Of a stretch of 64,000 bases of DNA, positions 1,485 to 47,862 are shown piece after piece. The notes beneath the pieces are model-generated. The model searched no databases and had not been told where the DNA came from. It saw only the letters and a list, made by a program, of their open reading frames with translations. The stretch spans positions 1-64,000 of the forward strand of contig NZ_SLZZ01000010.1 of the NCBI RefSeq assembly GCF_004346165.1, in the 5' to 3' direction. Position 1 is the first letter of the stretch, and the number at the start of each line of letters is the position of its first letter. Source of the DNA: Muricomes intestini. GTDB taxonomy: Bacteria > Bacillota > Clostridia > Lachnospirales > Lachnospiraceae. The translations under genes and the position numbers were made by a program.

Positions 1485-2282
1485 TTACAGTTCCTTTGAT
1501 TTTTCGGTAGCGGCTTTGATGCAATTCATAACGGAATAACGGAAACCGCCCTTTTCTAAAGCCTCTACACCTTCTATAGTAGTTCCGCCGGGGGAGCTGA
1601 CCATATCTTTTAATGCCCCGGGATGAATTTTTGTATCTAGTATCATTTTTGATGTTCCAAGACAAGTCTGGGCGGCAAGTTTGTAAGCTGTGTCACGAGG
1701 CAGCCCCTGTTTGACGGCTCCGTCAGCCAACGCTTCAATAAACATTGCCGTGTAGGCAGGACCGCCTCCGCTTAGTCCGCATGCAACATCAATTAATTTT
1801 TCGGGAAGCCATTCAATAATTCCGATGGAGGAAAATAACTGGCTCATGAGAGTAATTTCCTCCTCATTCAAGGTGTTGTCTGAGCAAAGGACAAACATAC
1901 CTTCTGAAACTAAGGCGGGAGTGTTGGGCATCACTCTCAATATGCGTACATTTTCATCAATCATGGCTGCAATGCGCTCTGCCCAGAGCCCGGCAACGAT
2001 GGAAACCAGTACTTTACCTTTCAAATGGCCTTTGCAGCTTTCCAGTGCTTCGGCTGCATTCTGTGGCTTTACTGCTAGAAGTATGATATCGCATTCGTCA
2101 CACAGCCGGGCATTGCTGTCAGCTGTGCTGATGCCCAGATCCTCTGCCCGCTTCATGGGCCCAGAAAGGATATCGTAAACTGCAAAATCCTCCTTGCTAA
2201 AAGCATCTGTACCAATTGCACCGCGCAAAATTGCACTTCCCATATTTCCGTATCCAATAACACCAATCCTCTTTTTTAACAT
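1485..2282 (-). CDS. proC: Pyrroline-5-carboxylate reductase
   Basis: 265 residues, the usual family length. It catalyses the last step of proline synthesis, NAD(P)H-dependent reduction of 1-pyrroline-5-carboxylate. The N-terminal Rossmann motif is IGVIGYGNMGSAILRG (residues 5-20). Further marks are LLAVKPQN (about 69), RVMPNTPALVSEG (about 116) and the C-terminal family signature near 220-235 (HPGALKDMVSSPGGTTIEG). It is monocistronic and convergent with the VanZ-like gene. The R1 repeat copy at 2339-2530 lies behind it, so its promoter is probably between 2283 and 2340, though I see no strong boxes. No other proline genes are nearby. Confidence 0.95.
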   Translation of the reverse strand: MLKKRIGVIGYGNMGSAILRGAIGTDAFSKEDFAVYDILSGPMKRAEDLGISTADSNARLCDECDIILLAVKPQNAAEALESCKGHLKGKVLVSIVAGLWAERIAAMIDENVRILRVMPNTPALVSEGMFVLCSDNTLNEEEITLMSQLFSSIGIIEWLPEKLIDVACGLSGGGPAYTAMFIEALADGAVKQGLPRDTAYKLAAQTCLGTSKMILDTKIHPGALKDMVSSPGGTTIEGVEALEKGGFRYSVMNCIKAATEKSKEL

Positions 2283-3221: not shown

Positions 3222-3236
3222 ATATGTATCATCTCC

Positions 3237-3809
3237 TTAAATACGTTTGTTAAACGTCTGCATTACATTTTTAATGACTTGCTGCATTATTTCATCGTTT
3301 GGCTCGGAGGAAGCTTTATAATCGGCATATCTTGCTGTTTCGTACAGAAAATCGGAGAGTCGGTTGATATATTTCAAGGCTGTGTGATCTGCTCCGTAAT
3401 TCTGGGCAACTTTATGGAATCTCCGCTCGGCCCTTCTTGCCACGGCCCTTGCCACATCCAGCCGGGCGGATTGTTCGCATCCGCCATACAGGACAAAAAG
3501 CTTAGGGCGGGGAAATGAATTCTCCATTCTGTCGATTTCTACTTCCAATACCTGAATCTGTTCATCGGAAACACGATATTCAGGATTCCGGGGATCGGCG
3601 ATTCCCCCCATGATCAACATCAATTCCCTCTGTATTTTAGAAAGACGCCCCTGAAGCTTGGGCTCTGCAATTACTTTTGCCAGCCCTAAGTGGCTGTTGA
3701 GCTCATCGATAGCTCCAAGCAGTTCGATTCTGGCATCGCACTTGGAAACTCTGATTCCGTTCATGAGAGAGGTTTTGCCCTTATCCCCGCCTTTGGTATA
3801 GATTTTCAT
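3237..3809 (-). CDS. pduO: PduO-type cob(I)alamin adenosyltransferase
   Basis: 190 residues. It transfers the adenosyl group of ATP to cob(I)alamin, making coenzyme B12. The N-terminal ATP-binding signature is TKGGDKGKTSLMNG (residues 5-18). Helical-bundle motifs follow: ELLGAIDELNSHLGLAK (about 29-45) and DVARAVARRAERR (about 117-129), the last being the conserved Arg-rich stretch. It lies downstream of the reactivase genes and would keep the dehydratase supplied with adenosylcobalamin, including cofactor released from inactivated enzyme. The gap to the preceding reactivase gene is 45 bases. Confidence 0.9.
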   Translation of the reverse strand: MKIYTKGGDKGKTSLMNGIRVSKCDARIELLGAIDELNSHLGLAKVIAEPKLQGRLSKIQRELMLIMGGIADPRNPEYRVSDEQIQVLEVEIDRMENSFPRPKLFVLYGGCEQSARLDVARAVARRAERRFHKVAQNYGADHTALKYINRLSDFLYETARYADYKASSEPNDEIMQQVIKNVMQTFNKRI

Positions 3810-23918: not shown

Positions 23919-25331
23919 ATGGAGTGGAGTACATTACTCTGCACCGAGCGCATGCGGAGCGGTGCAGGAAACCGGAGAATAAAGACAACAGATTTGAGAA
24001 GCGAGTTTGAAAAGGATTACCATCGTATCATCGGCAGCGCCTCTTTTAGGCGCCTGCAGGATAAAACTCAGGTATTTCCTCTGGATAAGAGTGATTTTAT
24101 CAGAACCAGGCTTACCCATTCACTCGAAGTCTCTTCATTGGGAAAGTCTCTCGGACAGAATATAGGAGAAAACATTATTAACTGCAGAAAAGACCCTGGT
24201 TTTACTCCTAAGATGAAAGAGGACATCTGTCATATACTTCAGTGTGCAGGACTGATTCATGATATTGGAAACCCTCCCTTTGGGCATTTTGGAGAAAATG
24301 CAATCAGGGAATGGTTTATAAAAAATCTGCCATGTATGACTTACCAAGATGAGCCCGTAGAGAGGATGCTGACACCCCAGATGAAGGCAGATTTCTACCA
24401 TTTTGAGGGAAATGCTCAGGCACTGCGGCTGGTGACAAAACTACATTATCTTGTGGACGAGTACGGTATGAACCTGACTTATGCACTTTTGAACACGATT
24501 GTAAAATATCCGGTTCCTTCTACAAAAATTAGCATACATTCAGGAAATATCAAAGAGAAGAAAATGGGCTATTATTATGCCGATCAGGATATATTTGAAG
24601 CAGTTTCTACAGCAACCGGTGCAAAAAACAACCGCCATCCATTGACTTACATTCTGGAGGCGGCAGATGACCTGGCCTATAAAACTGCGGATATTGAAGA
24701 CGCATTTGTGAAAGGATTCCTTTCATTCCATGAGCTGAGCCGGGAACTGGAAAAGCTGCAGAAGGAGAATCCGGAGGCGGACTTTCAGACATTGGACAAG
24801 TTGAAATCTTTGTATGAACGAGGAATAGAGAAAAAAGTGAGCCACCCGGAATCTTATGCAGTTAAGAACTGGATTGTGCGGATACAAGGATATCTCATCA
24901 GCTGCGCGACCTTTGGATTTACATCCCACTATGAGGAGATTATGGCGGGAACTTTTAAGCATGATTTATTTTATGGGAGTTTTGGCGGCAGGCTTATGGA
25001 CTTGCTGGGCGATATTGCATACCGTTATGTATTTACTTCCACAGCAATATATAAGATGGAAGTTACGGAATCTGTGATACTGGACTTTCTCATGGACAAG
25101 ATGGTACATGCGGTACTGTACTACGATACAGATGAGATGTTGGATCCCATTGACAGCAGGGTGGTGTCGTTTATCTCTGATAACTACAAAAATGCATATA
25201 AGCATCAGGCAGAGGGGAAGAGCGAGGCAGAAAAATTATATCTCCGCCTGCTGCTTGTGACGGATTACGTGTGCGGCATGACAGACAGCTATGCCAAACG
25301 CCTGTATCAGGAAATGAATGGGTTGATTTAA
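23919..25331 (+). CDS. dgt: dGTP triphosphohydrolase
   Basis: 470 residues. HD-domain phosphohydrolase that releases triphosphate from dGTP. Metal ligands are in RTRLTHSLEVSSLG (about 67-80) and LIHDIGNPPFGHFGENAI (about 112-129), plus the downstream FEGNAQALRLVTKL and LEAADDLAYKTADIEDA (about 245-261). Such enzymes balance nucleotide pools or limit foreign DNA. The region just after the stop duplicates 14 bases of the gene end (ATGAATGGGTTGAT), followed by the terminator. Confidence 0.93.
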   Translation: MEWSTLLCTERMRSGAGNRRIKTTDLRSEFEKDYHRIIGSASFRRLQDKTQVFPLDKSDFIRTRLTHSLEVSSLGKSLGQNIGENIINCRKDPGFTPKMKEDICHILQCAGLIHDIGNPPFGHFGENAIREWFIKNLPCMTYQDEPVERMLTPQMKADFYHFEGNAQALRLVTKLHYLVDEYGMNLTYALLNTIVKYPVPSTKISIHSGNIKEKKMGYYYADQDIFEAVSTATGAKNNRHPLTYILEAADDLAYKTADIEDAFVKGFLSFHELSRELEKLQKENPEADFQTLDKLKSLYERGIEKKVSHPESYAVKNWIVRIQGYLISCATFGFTSHYEEIMAGTFKHDLFYGSFGGRLMDLLGDIAYRYVFTSTAIYKMEVTESVILDFLMDKMVHAVLYYDTDEMLDPIDSRVVSFISDNYKNAYKHQAEGKSEAEKLYLRLLLVTDYVCGMTDSYAKRLYQEMNGLI

Positions 25332-25427: not shown

Positions 25428-27878
25428 CTACATCATATAACGGCACCAGTGTCCGAACTCCTCAGAATCATCTCTCTCATCATCGCTCAGAGTCAGCCGC
25501 TTAACATGAGACTTGGTGAACTGGGGGAACCCGAACAATTCTGCCGCCCGTGCTTCCCGGGGACTGAAGACCCCCGGAACTCCAAGCCAGTAGTGGCCGT
25601 TCGACTCCACAAGCATCAGATGATGATAATTGTGATATCCATGCATCAGAAAACTGTTGTTGGCAATGTTCCAATATTTGCGTGGGAGAATGGAAAGGTC
25701 TGAACGCTGGATTTTTCGCACATTCTCCAAATATTGGGGTTGAGATTCGGAAAAGGAGGACTGCGTTGTCTTAGGTTCTGCCCCTGCAATTGTTGTGCTG
25801 TTTACTTCTGGAGGAAGTTCCTCATGGGTTTCCATTGCCGGTATATTGTCTGCTGTTTCTGCAGCAGGTTGCCTATCTGTACTTATGTTTGGAGGAGTTT
25901 CCGTGTTCATAGTCGGTTGTCGCCCCATATTTGCAGTTGGAGGAGTTCCTGTATTCATAGTCGGTTCCTGCCCCATGTTACCAGTCGGTTGTCTGCCTGT
26001 ATTTGGAGAAGTACCGATATTCATGTTAGGTTGTCGCCCCATATTGCCAGTTGGCTGCCAACCTATATTTGCATTTGGAGGGGTTCCTATATTACCAGTC
26101 GGCTGCCTGCCTGTATTTGCATTTGAAGGAGTACCGATGTTCATGTTAGGTTGTCGCCCCATATTACCGGTCGGTTGCGTGCCTGTACCTGTGTTTGAAG
26201 GAGTTCCCATGTTACCAGTCGGTTGCGTGCCTGTATTTGTATTTGAAGGAGTACCGATGTTCATGTTAGGTTGTCGCCCCATATTGCCAGTCGGCTGCCA
26301 ACCTATATTTGCAGTTGAAGGAGTTCCCATGTTACCAGTCGGCTGCCTGCCTGTATTTGCATTTGAAGGAGTACCGATGTTCATGTTAGGTTGTCGCCCC
26401 ATATTGCCAGTCGGCTGCCAACCTATATTTGCATTTGGGGGAGTTCCTATATTACCAGTCGGCTGCGTACCTGTATTTGCATTTGGAGGAGTACCGATGT
26501 TCATGTTAGGTTGTCGCCCCATATTACCGGTCGGTTGCCTGCCTGTACCTGTGTTTGAAGGAGTTCCCATGTTACCAGTCGGCTGCCTGCCTGTATTTGC
26601 ATTTGGAGGAGTACCGATGCTCATGTTAGGTTGTCGCCCCATATTACCGGTCGGTTGCCTGCCTGTACCTGTGTTTGAAGGAGTTCCCATGTTACCAGTC
26701 GGCTGCGTGCCTGTATTTGCATTTGAAGGAGTACCGATGTTCATGTTAGGTTGTCGCCCCATATTGCCAGTCGGCTGCGTGCCTGTATTTGCATTTGAAG
26801 GAGTACCGACATTCATGTTAGGTTGTCGTCCCATATTACCAGTCGGTTGCCTGCCTGTACCTGTATTTGGAGGAGTACCGATGTTCATGTTAGGTTGTCG
26901 TCCCATATTACCAGTCGGCTGCCTGCCTGTATTTGCATTTGAAGGAGTATCGATGTTCATGTTAGGTTGTCGTCCCATATTACCAGTTGGCTGCGTGCCT
27001 GTATTTGTGGCCGGTGGTGTTCCTATATTAACAGCCGGCATTCCTTCTGTTGTAGGAGCCGGCATTCTTTCCGCAGGAGGGACAGGTATTCCTTCTGTTG
27101 TAGGAGCCGGTATTCTTCCCACTGCAGTATCCGGAGGGGTCCCATTTACGGTAGTAGGAATTCCTCCTATACCTGCCGCCGGAGGCACTCCGGTTATGGC
27201 AGTAGGAATTCCTTCTATACCTGAAGTTGGAGGCACTCCGGTTACAGTAGTAGGGATTCCTTCTATACCTGCCGCCGGAGGCACTCCGGTTACAGCAGTA
27301 GGAATTTCTCCTATACCTGAAGCTGGAGGCACTCCGGTTACAGCAGTAGGAATTTCTCCTATACCTGAAGCTGGAGGCACTCCGGTTACAGCAGTAGGGA
27401 TTCCTTCTATACCTGTAGCTGGAGGTGCTCCAGTTACGGCGGCAGGTATCCTACCTGTTTCTGCACCCGGTGCATTTTCTGTCTCGCTCGGTTCGGGCAC
27501 TTCCTCTCTGATGTTTCTCGTGTCAAAATTTGATTCTTCTGTGGCTGCGACAATAAACTGCAGAGTAGGAGTGCGGAAGAAAAATCCATCTATCGACTCC
27601 AGTGTTTTATTTCCGGGGAGCATGGAATCTGGTATAGAAAGATTTGCCGTGACACTTTCATTTTCACAGGGGATTACAGCAATTTTGCGTGAAATAATAT
27701 CCGGGCTCTGTTCGTAGAATGCGAAAAGGTCAACTGTATCACCGGATTGGACAGGAATCCTGCGGGCATTGATTTTCAGGACAATCGTGTGATAGTTCTG
27801 TGAAACCCTAAGAAAACCTACATTTCTGAGCTTATCTTGATTTTTATATTCATATAAATAATAGATACCGGGGTTCAT
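25428..27878 (-). CDS. DUF6128-like protein with large Gly/Pro/Asn/Thr repeat region
   Basis: 816 residues in three parts. The N-terminal ~140 residues (MNPGIYYLYEYKNQDKLRN...) form a folded domain with alternating hydrophobic pattern. Residues ~145-290 hold 16-residue repeats of the type GIEGIPTAVTGVPPAS. Residues ~290-660 hold repeats built from NTGRQPTGNMG and RQPNMNIGTPSNA units. The C-terminal ~90 residues (ILPRKYWNIANNSFLMHGY, GHYWLGVPGVFSPREARAA, ELFGFPQFTKS) match what I know as the DUF6128 domain of Lachnospiraceae. No signal peptide or sortase motif is visible, so it is likely cytoplasmic. Function unknown. The DNA repeat makes the array prone to length change and also leaves a 640-codon open antisense frame. 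Confidence 0.8.
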   Translation of the reverse strand: MNPGIYYLYEYKNQDKLRNVGFLRVSQNYHTIVLKINARRIPVQSGDTVDLFAFYEQSPDIISRKIAVIPCENESVTANLSIPDSMLPGNKTLESIDGFFFRTPTLQFIVAATEESNFDTRNIREEVPEPSETENAPGAETGRIPAAVTGAPPATGIEGIPTAVTGVPPASGIGEIPTAVTGVPPASGIGEIPTAVTGVPPAAGIEGIPTTVTGVPPTSGIEGIPTAITGVPPAAGIGGIPTTVNGTPPDTAVGRIPAPTTEGIPVPPAERMPAPTTEGMPAVNIGTPPATNTGTQPTGNMGRQPNMNIDTPSNANTGRQPTGNMGRQPNMNIGTPPNTGTGRQPTGNMGRQPNMNVGTPSNANTGTQPTGNMGRQPNMNIGTPSNANTGTQPTGNMGTPSNTGTGRQPTGNMGRQPNMSIGTPPNANTGRQPTGNMGTPSNTGTGRQPTGNMGRQPNMNIGTPPNANTGTQPTGNIGTPPNANIGWQPTGNMGRQPNMNIGTPSNANTGRQPTGNMGTPSTANIGWQPTGNMGRQPNMNIGTPSNTNTGTQPTGNMGTPSNTGTGTQPTGNMGRQPNMNIGTPSNANTGRQPTGNIGTPPNANIGWQPTGNMGRQPNMNIGTSPNTGRQPTGNMGQEPTMNTGTPPTANMGRQPTMNTETPPNISTDRQPAAETADNIPAMETHEELPPEVNSTTIAGAEPKTTQSSFSESQPQYLENVRKIQRSDLSILPRKYWNIANNSFLMHGYHNYHHLMLVESNGHYWLGVPGVFSPREARAAELFGFPQFTKSHVKRLTLSDDERDDSEEFGHWCRYMM
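25998..27010. repeat. Tandem repeat array of 120-bp and 72-bp higher-order units
   Basis: Marker CATGTTAGGTTGTCGCCCC recurs at exactly 120-bp steps, ending at 26040, 26160, 26280, 26400, 26520, 26640 and 26760. Three 72-bp steps follow near 26832, 26904 and 26976. All are whole-codon lengths (40 and 24 codons), so copy changes keep the frame of the minus-strand gene. Confidence 0.9.
27025..27450. repeat. Second tandem array, 48-bp units
   Basis: Blocks such as GGAGGCACTCCGGTTACAGC recur every 48 bp (16 codons), with exact neighbours around 27270-27400. They encode the GVPPASGIGEIPTAVT-type repeats of the same protein. Confidence 0.85.
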
Positions 27879-28002
27879 ATTACACCTCTGGTCTTGTCTC
27901 TCTTTCCATCTAATCTATTCATAGAACTTTTGAAAAAGAACTGGATTTATGGTAAATTAATAAAAAGGCGAAAAAACATCGGAAAGGCCAAGGGTAAGAA
28001 GA

Positions 28003-28482
28003 ATGGATTTAGATATAAAATATATGAAAGAGGCAATCAGACAGGCAGAAAAGGCATATGCACTGGAAGAGGTGCCTATAGGCTGTGTTATTGTTTATCA
28101 GGACAAAATCATTGGAAGGGGATATAACAGAAGAACCACGGACAAAAATGCACTGGCTCATGCAGAACTTCTGGCAATCAAAAAGGCCAGCAGAAAGATG
28201 AATGACTGGCGTCTGGAAGACTGTACCATGTATGTTACTCTGGAGCCGTGCCAGATGTGTTCCGGTGCAATTGTTCAATCAAGGATTAAAAGAGTGGTGG
28301 TGGGGTGCATGAATCCGAAAGCAGGCTGTGCCGGTTCGATTTTGAATATGTTGGAAATGAAAGAATTTAATCATCAGGCAGAACTTACAACAGGAGTACT
28401 GGAGGAAGAATGCAGTAATATGATGAAACAGTTTTTTAAAGAGCTCAGGGGAAAACAGAAGAGGAAAAAGAAAAAAGACTGA
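28003..28482 (+). CDS. tadA: tRNA-specific adenosine deaminase
   Basis: 159 residues. It converts A34 to inosine in tRNA-Arg(ACG). The zinc-deaminase motifs are AHAELLAI (about 53-60, with the catalytic HAE) and LEPCQMCSGAIVQSRIKRVVVG (about 83-104, PCxxC), plus NPKAGCAGS. The tail is strongly basic (KRKKKKD). It starts from the ATG at 28003. The 124 bases separating it from the divergent repeat gene hold no clear boxes. It is convergent with the SRP RNA. Confidence 0.95.
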   Translation: MDLDIKYMKEAIRQAEKAYALEEVPIGCVIVYQDKIIGRGYNRRTTDKNALAHAELLAIKKASRKMNDWRLEDCTMYVTLEPCQMCSGAIVQSRIKRVVVGCMNPKAGCAGSILNMLEMKEFNHQAELTTGVLEEECSNMMKQFFKELRGKQKRKKKKD

Positions 28483-47274: not shown

Positions 47275-47862
47275 ATGAATCCAAAACTGCCGTATTACAT
47301 GGTGTACCCTATGCCCCTTGCCTATGATGATGAGAAAATTGAGCGCAGAGATTTTGAGTATATGAAGAGTCTTTATCCGGACGTGGCGAAAAAACTCCTG
47401 CCATATGTGGAAGATGAATGTGACAGGATGGAGTATGACTGCAGTATGATGTATGATGAATATCCGGATAAACTGCAGCTTCGTATGATGGGCAGCCGGG
47501 TATATGACAAGGTAAAAAGTGATAAAAGTTTTCTCAATCTTTTGATACCGGAAGAGCAGAATGACAGAGCAGCCGCGCAGGAGACAGAGATATCGGAACA
47601 GGCAGTGTACGCACCGGGGCGCCCGCCTCAGGGAAATCGTCCGCCCCATGGAGGTCGTCCGCCTCAAGGTAACCGTCCGCCACAAGGGAATCGTCCGCCT
47701 CAGGGAAATCGTCCGCCGAAACCGGGAAGGCCTCCTTTTGATAACAGGCCCGGGGGTAAGGGAAATCCTGATTGGCTGAGGGATTTAATTGATGTAATTC
47801 TTTACCAGGAATTGTATAGACGCAGATGCGATAACCGTCGATGCGGGCGCAGATTTTACTAA
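47275..47862 (+). CDS. Hypothetical protein with Pro/Arg/Gly/Gln repeats, Lachnospiraceae type
   Basis: 195 residues. A compact N-terminal part (YYMVYPMPLAYDDEKIERRD; MKSLYPDVAKKLLPYVEDE; MMYDEYPDKLQLRMM) is rich in Tyr, Met and acidic residues. Residues about 115-160 repeat RPPQGN-like units (GRPPQGNRPPHGGRPPQGN). The end is PDWLRDLIDVILYQELYRRR and RCGRRFY. There is no signal peptide. The first and last parts look like a conserved but unnamed family; I do not know its function. Confidence 0.7.
   Translation: MNPKLPYYMVYPMPLAYDDEKIERRDFEYMKSLYPDVAKKLLPYVEDECDRMEYDCSMMYDEYPDKLQLRMMGSRVYDKVKSDKSFLNLLIPEEQNDRAAAQETEISEQAVYAPGRPPQGNRPPHGGRPPQGNRPPQGNRPPQGNRPPKPGRPPFDNRPGGKGNPDWLRDLIDVILYQELYRRRCDNRRCGRRFY

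Follow-up and report, generated by a model that had tools for sequence, protein, structure and literature searches.

A DUF6128 protein of Muricomes intestini with a modular 24-bp repeat linker and a probable role in sporulation

What does a protein do that holds several hundred repetitive residues between two conserved ends? This question is raised by an 816-aa CDS at 25428..27878 (minus strand) of the 64,000-nucleotide stretch of Muricomes intestini DNA analysed here, which we refer to as the window. The ORF is intact, with its ATG at 27878 and a stop ending at 25428, and according to ORF and Pfam analysis it encodes an N-terminal domain of about 125 residues, a repeat linker of about 577 residues, and a C-terminal DUF6128 domain.

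Two conserved ends and a linker of 24-bp modules

The C-terminal domain (residues 703-816; 25431..25772, minus strand) passes the curated Pfam cut-off for DUF6128 (PF19623) at residues 720-792 with E = 3e-7 and 30.9 bits vs 27, confirming the DUF6128-like character that an earlier note on this DNA had proposed. That note had suggested a domain search of both ends, which identifies the C-terminal end as DUF6128 but finds no direct Pfam family, DUF7922 (PF25538) included, for the N-terminal domain (residues 1-125; 27504..27878, minus strand) at E up to 1. In NCBIfam, the window protein has no match at E up to 1. The alignments of the N-domain (A1, 35 rows) and of the C-domain (A2, 36 rows, mean column identity 46%) agree with the conserved ends described earlier, and this conservation suggests that both ends are folded domains. 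A hydrophobic leader is not evident by eye at the N-terminus, as would be expected if assembly takes place from the mother-cell cytoplasm.

The linker spans 577 of the 816 residues, about 70% of the protein and not about half as previously estimated, and contains two repeat blocks. The first (27146..27437, minus strand) has a 48-bp period of two 8-residue modules of the type IPTAVTGV PPASGIGE; in its 8-residue rhythm, proline occupies one position in 100% of the modules and glycine another in 75%. The second (25906..27007, minus strand), delineated by Tandem Repeats Finder, a module list, and autocorrelation, consists of 24-bp modules arranged in higher-order units of 120, 72, and 48 bp, with the three recurrent types QPTGNMGx (e.g. 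QPTGNMGR), QPNMNIGT, and P(S/P)NANTGx (e.g. PSNANTGR). At a score threshold of 50, Tandem Repeats Finder reports 7.0 copies of 120 bp at 25972-26804 (88% matches, score 1239; 1393 if the same segment is taken at period 360), 4.5 copies of 72 bp at 26685-27007 (90% matches, score 548), and 6.1 copies of 48 bp at 27146-27437 (88% matches, score 423). The periods of 120, 72, and 48 bp given in the earlier note are thus recovered, but all are multiples of one 24-bp (8-residue) module, and we reject three independent nested units. The self-identity of the window linker peaks at lags of 16, 40, 24, 48, 56, 32, and 8 residues (0.52 to 0.35, mean 0.12); at the best lag, it exceeds that of shuffled versions of this linker by 55 s.d.

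The near-identity of the DNA copies is borne out by shared module spellings. QPNMNIGT has a single DNA spelling in six of its seven copies, while among ten copies of QPTGNMGR two spellings are each used three times. Such identical spellings indicate recent duplication or homogenisation, in line with the in-frame expansion or homogenisation proposed before. No exact repeat in the gene is longer than 86 bp, so collapse is not expected with reads well over 100 bp, but the copy number, taken from a 69-contig draft, is provisional.

The order of N-domain, linker, and C-domain is found in all 34 relatives for which a single ORF was seen to hold both domains, with linkers ranging from 16 to 625 residues. 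The linker sequence varies by lineage and is often Glu/Lys-rich, and Pro/Thr/Gly/Asn-rich in the window genus. Tandem repetition exceeding shuffles by more than 5 s.d. occurs in 13 of 69 linkers, one of which was too short to score, and the units differ. In the same genus, C105KSO13 and a MAG carry other 16-residue repeats in the linker. Counted from the start codon they share, the proteins of relatives have 700 aa (C105KSO13), 864 aa (a MAG), and 507 aa (VE202-21). Length change without frame loss, which the earlier note had predicted between strains, is thus seen between species in the genomes compared, one per species. In a Faecalicatena contorta assembly, a 355-N gap lies within the array (3230-3584), so that the apparent array length is provisional. 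Thus, relatives retain a linker but neither its repeat sequence nor its length, and one way of lengthening it that recurs is tandem expansion.

The family reaches beyond the Lachnospiraceae. The C-domain profile is positive in 126 of 200 genomes of the same family, and two further carriers come from N-domain matches (128/200). Class-wide, 41 of 291 genomes match the C-domain, 34 of them outside the order and weakly (E = 3e-10 to 7e-4). Twenty class-wide matches were read out (18 from the class, two from the order), and 17 of these distant members match the family N-domain profile in the same ORF (domain E up to 0.01). DUF7922 matches seven of ten distant members scanned (E up to 0.1), and three of these exceed its cut-off; two further distant members gave no DUF7922 match, and none of the ten is over a cut-off in NCBIfam. 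Profile comparison by hhalign connects the N-domains of the window family (A1) with those of the 20 distant members (A3) at 98.4% (E = 8.9e-15) and the respective C-domains at 99.4% (E = 3.8e-21). The window N-domain is therefore a profile homologue of the DUF7922-type N-domain of other Clostridia, though it has no direct match to the DUF7922 HMM. The combined N-domain profile has a match in 89 of 291 class genomes. PF19623 is without a match in the 14 control genomes, among which is the spore-former B. subtilis, and one scan of viral contigs with the window C-domain gave no match. In three genomes (G011, G096, and G117), one stop is counted inside the C-domain match, which may be a normal gene end, a pseudogene, or a sequencing error.

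Structure searches added no relative. AlphaFold2 models the window C-domain from seven rows with a pLDDT of 65.6, and a compact relative from eight rows with an unusable mean pLDDT of 41.6. Foldseek with the C-domain model retrieves nothing from the PDB better than E = 1.5, and PDB sequence searches reach at best E = 0.19 (A1) and 0.77 (A2), which we rejected. The best VIA-align result, a likeness to RsbV/RsbW (6m36; Z 4.4, rmsd 3.0, 70 aligned), is within the range of unrelated folds; on this basis we assign no fold and dismiss none.

Co-occurrence with spore genes and upstream elements

The distribution of the gene follows that of sporulation genes. Among the 200 family genomes, gene and spoIVA occur together in 122, the gene alone in four, spoIVA alone in 12, and neither in 62 if the C-domain only is considered (phi 0.83); with the two N-domain matches added, the counts are 124, 4, 10, and 62 (phi 0.85). 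Here, spoIVA is counted only over the cut-off, and one genome with a match below it (G064) is scored negative. Across the 291 class genomes, both are present in 84, the gene only in five, spoIVA only in 124, and neither in 78, which places spoIVA in 84 of 89 carriers vs 124 of 202 non-carriers (p = 5.6e-10). The association holds without the family (80/5/124/72, p = 1.3e-8). Moreover, eight of the nine carriers without detected spoIVA have spoIIIAE (three of four at the family level, all five at the class level), and none of 12 double-negative genomes tested does. At both levels, the gene is restricted to genomes with spore genes, with the one exception of G094 (460 contigs), a carrier with neither SpoIVA nor SpoIIIAE.

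The reverse does not hold. Ten spoIVA-positive family genomes have no detected member, eight of which have spoIIIAE; among the cases is the clade of G100, G160, and G183, putative sporulators in which SpoIVA and SpoIIIAE are present at 97-99% completeness and no family member is detected. At the class level, 124 spoIVA-positive genomes lack a detected N-domain. Hence, the gene is either not indispensable or has diverged beyond detection in these spoIVA-positive family genomes; a lineage-specific spore protein need not occur in every spore-former.

A second line of evidence comes from the upstream region. In the window, the candidate mother-cell sigma -10 element GAATAGATTAG (27910..27920, minus strand), which is conserved upstream in near relatives, differs from the published sigma-E -10 sequence KCATANANT by one mismatch (C to A), and the window clade carries a conserved GAATAGATT-type variant in place of the exact CATA -10. 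A usable start was available for 54 of 55 alignment rows, and removal of the near-duplicates L039 and L089 left 52 upstreams, with starts chosen by script and a G+C content slightly below that of the controls (0.33 vs 0.36). An unsupervised motif search of these upstreams returns gCATAtAtTa. CATAHANW is present in 24 of 52 upstreams, compared with 36 of 340 control ORFs from these loci (p = 6.5e-9) and a shuffle expectation of 4.4, and GAATAGA in 8/52 vs 9/340 (p = 0.00054). The CATA patterns were picked after viewing the upstreams; a test of the published consensus followed. The sigma-E -10 consensus of B. subtilis, given as KCATANANTN in Table 4 of PMC3416734, occurs in 13/52 vs 15/340 (p = 7.6e-6), and the sigma-K -10 in 5/52 vs 4/340 (p = 0.0028). 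As the sigma-G -10 consensus is marginally enriched as well (6/52 vs 15/340, p = 0.046), the sigma factor is not settled. TATAAT (8/52 vs 59/340, p = 0.7) and the combined sigma-K -35/-10 pattern (6/52 vs 24/340, p = 0.19) are not enriched, and CATNNTA is not clearly so (11/52 vs 41/340, p = 0.06). The upstreams of the family are thus enriched in sigma-E/K-like -10 elements.

A probable part of the spore envelope

The earlier note had left open what such a spacer does in a cytoplasmic protein; where the gene occurs, the motif upstream of it, and its surroundings in other Clostridia suggest sporulation. The explanation we favour, with a probability of roughly 0.65, is a sporulation protein made in the mother cell that most likely contributes to the structure or morphogenesis of the spore envelope, on the coat side. 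Expression would fall into sporulation, and the protein would probably be placed in the spore coat, where each of the two conserved domains may bind a partner or layer of its own. The two would be tethered by the fast-evolving linker, which is Pro/Thr/Gly/Asn-rich in the window genus. In this genus, the linker may grow and shrink by recombination or slippage among in-frame 24-bp modules; a change in length would be tolerated if only the presence and extension of the linker matter.

A spore protein with a variable linker is of a known kind. BclA-type exosporium proteins contain in-frame repeat regions whose length varies between strains. These repeats are collagen-like (Gly-X-Y) and surface-exposed, whereas the 8-residue modules of the window protein are not Gly-X-Y, and its ends differ from those of BclA. 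The mother-cell coat morphogenetic proteins SipL, SpoVID, and SafA have conserved ends and a long variable region. They offer a comparison by mode of action only, as SPOCS and LysM do not occur in the window protein and no sequence relationship was found. PMC4358009 describes SipL as a functional homologue of the SpoIVA-interacting protein SpoVID. For C. difficile, PMC3789822 describes CD3522 as a sigma-E-controlled protein of unknown function that was detected in the spore proteome, and proposes it as a new component of the coat. We regard CD3522 as the best published lead, and as a lead only; that it belongs to this family would be a conjecture from gene order, by which it may lie in the ksgA region.

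The proposed assignment of DUF6128 and DUF7922 to this kind, and their unification, appear to be new. Pfam gives neither family a function, and no paper naming either was found in the literature searched. Compared with the Pfam description of DUF6128, of which the window C-domain is a member, the family is here tied to sporulation, joined to the N-domain in all full members measured, and traced by profile into other Clostridia. Two Pfam families without an assigned function thereby gain a testable role, and the gene adds a marker of spore-forming capacity in Lachnospiraceae. Spore formation decides the host-to-host travel of many gut Lachnospiraceae, and the coat proteins of Clostridia are poorly known. 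The family also clearly illustrates how evolution can preserve a linker as such without preserving its sequence or length. A bolder and rather doubtful extension would see DUF7922-linker-DUF6128 as a widespread but so far overlooked clostridial spore-envelope scaffold bridging two layers, with the linker as a molecular spacer. If so, the 24-bp minisatellite of the window genus would turn spore-envelope spacing or surface properties into a contingency trait, altered in steps of whole 8-residue modules.

A position outside the coat is possible, though distinctly less likely than the coat side: the protein might serve in engulfment, cortex formation, a mother-cell enzyme complex, or germination. 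Co-occurrence and upstream motif indicate sporulation, and probably the mother cell, but not the structure concerned, and at E up to 0.01 Pfam yields only PF19623 for the window protein, with no coat-type domain such as LysM or SPOCS. On the other hand, a repetitive, length-tolerant linker between conserved ends fits a structural tether, and in a few Clostridia genes of the SipL and YabG types are found nearby, whose products act in coat assembly or processing (for SipL, PMC4358009). Among 40 loci outside the family (20 regions from C-domain matches and 20 from combined N-domain matches), YabG lies within four ORFs in three, and a SipL-type gene is present in four of the stretches.

It is improbable that the gene has nothing to do with sporulation and was lost alongside genome reduction in former spore-formers. 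The genomes of former spore-formers among gut Firmicutes are given as 36% smaller on average (PMC8340488), and many genes would have been lost together. However, the comparably patchy flagellar gene FliF, the single control gene run (109/200 genomes), is associated with neither the gene (phi 0.03) nor spoIVA (phi 0.04). Independent contrasts on an rpoB tree separate the two as well. This one-gene FastTree phylogeny covers 98 genomes, 53 carriers and 45 non-carriers, taken from the 182 of 200 that have an rpoB match. On it, the gene agrees with spoIVA in 8.8, opposes it in 0.1, and is unchanged in 1.1 of ten supported independent pairs differing in spoIVA (averages; median p = 0.0039, range 0.00195-0.18), while FliF yields 2.7 vs 2.6 (median p = 1). 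The upstream motif, in addition, is independent of the loss pattern. The control and the contrasts argue against genome reduction as the sole cause, and the co-occurrence with spore genes goes beyond shared ancestry.

Genomic neighbourhood and antisense frame

In the window, the gene is flanked by a divergent tadA-type deaminase gene (28003..28482, plus strand; PF14437/PF00383) and a convergent gene for an HD-domain phosphohydrolase (dGTPase-like; 23919..25331, plus strand; PF01966, PF13286). At the family level, 32 regions were collected, 30 from the 126 C-domain positives and two from same-genus genomes outside that draw; the neighbour counts leave out the same-genus L064-L066 and thus cover 29 regions plus the window. 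tadA is found within four ORFs in 20 of these 30 loci, the window belonging to this group, and ksgA nearby in 10. In the 40 loci outside the family, ksgA directly adjoins the gene in 24 and lies within four ORFs in 28, a distance that also includes yabE-like genes in 25, rnmV in 12, and tatD in 11. Pfam confirms SipL, YabG, Veg, KsgA-type, and G5/3D (YabE-type) proteins in representatives.

These tadA, ksgA, and rnmV neighbours could suggest that a translation-linked role accounts for the gene position, which we consider very improbable. To our knowledge, all three are near-universal among bacteria, whereas the gene is missing from non-sporulators, and its orientation to tadA flips among relatives, so that gene and tadA do not form one operon. 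A vegetative tadA-linked function was considered and rejected.

Two observations concern gene arrangement. Compared with the relatives L060 and L061, which have the same flanking genes in unchanged order, the gene is inverted in the window segment 22875-28482. In a distant genome (L209), a 114-aa Tyr/Gly/Pro/Met-rich ORF of coat-like look and without Pfam match (1761-2102, plus strand) lies just upstream of the yabE-like gene.

The opposite strand carries a 640-aa ORF across the repeats (25795..27717, plus strand), which we read as a by-product of the stop-free 24-bp modules. That this ORF is a real gene, or that the array is an assembly artefact, is hardly credible: its length, the frame it shares with the longest antisense frame in two of three relatives (440 and 193 codons; the third, of 352 codons, uses another frame), and the gap inside the F. 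contorta array are countered by the differing in-frame arrays of independent genomes, by the position of both conserved domains in the sense frame, and by the antisense frame having no Pfam match at E up to 0.01 and falling to 440 and 193 codons in relatives, on which grounds we rejected it as a gene.

Elsewhere in the window, at 47275-47859 (plus strand), a 195-aa protein without Pfam match has PPQGNR units from an 18-bp tandem repeat, and an end rich in Arg, Cys, and Tyr; it could be another repeat-bearing spore protein.
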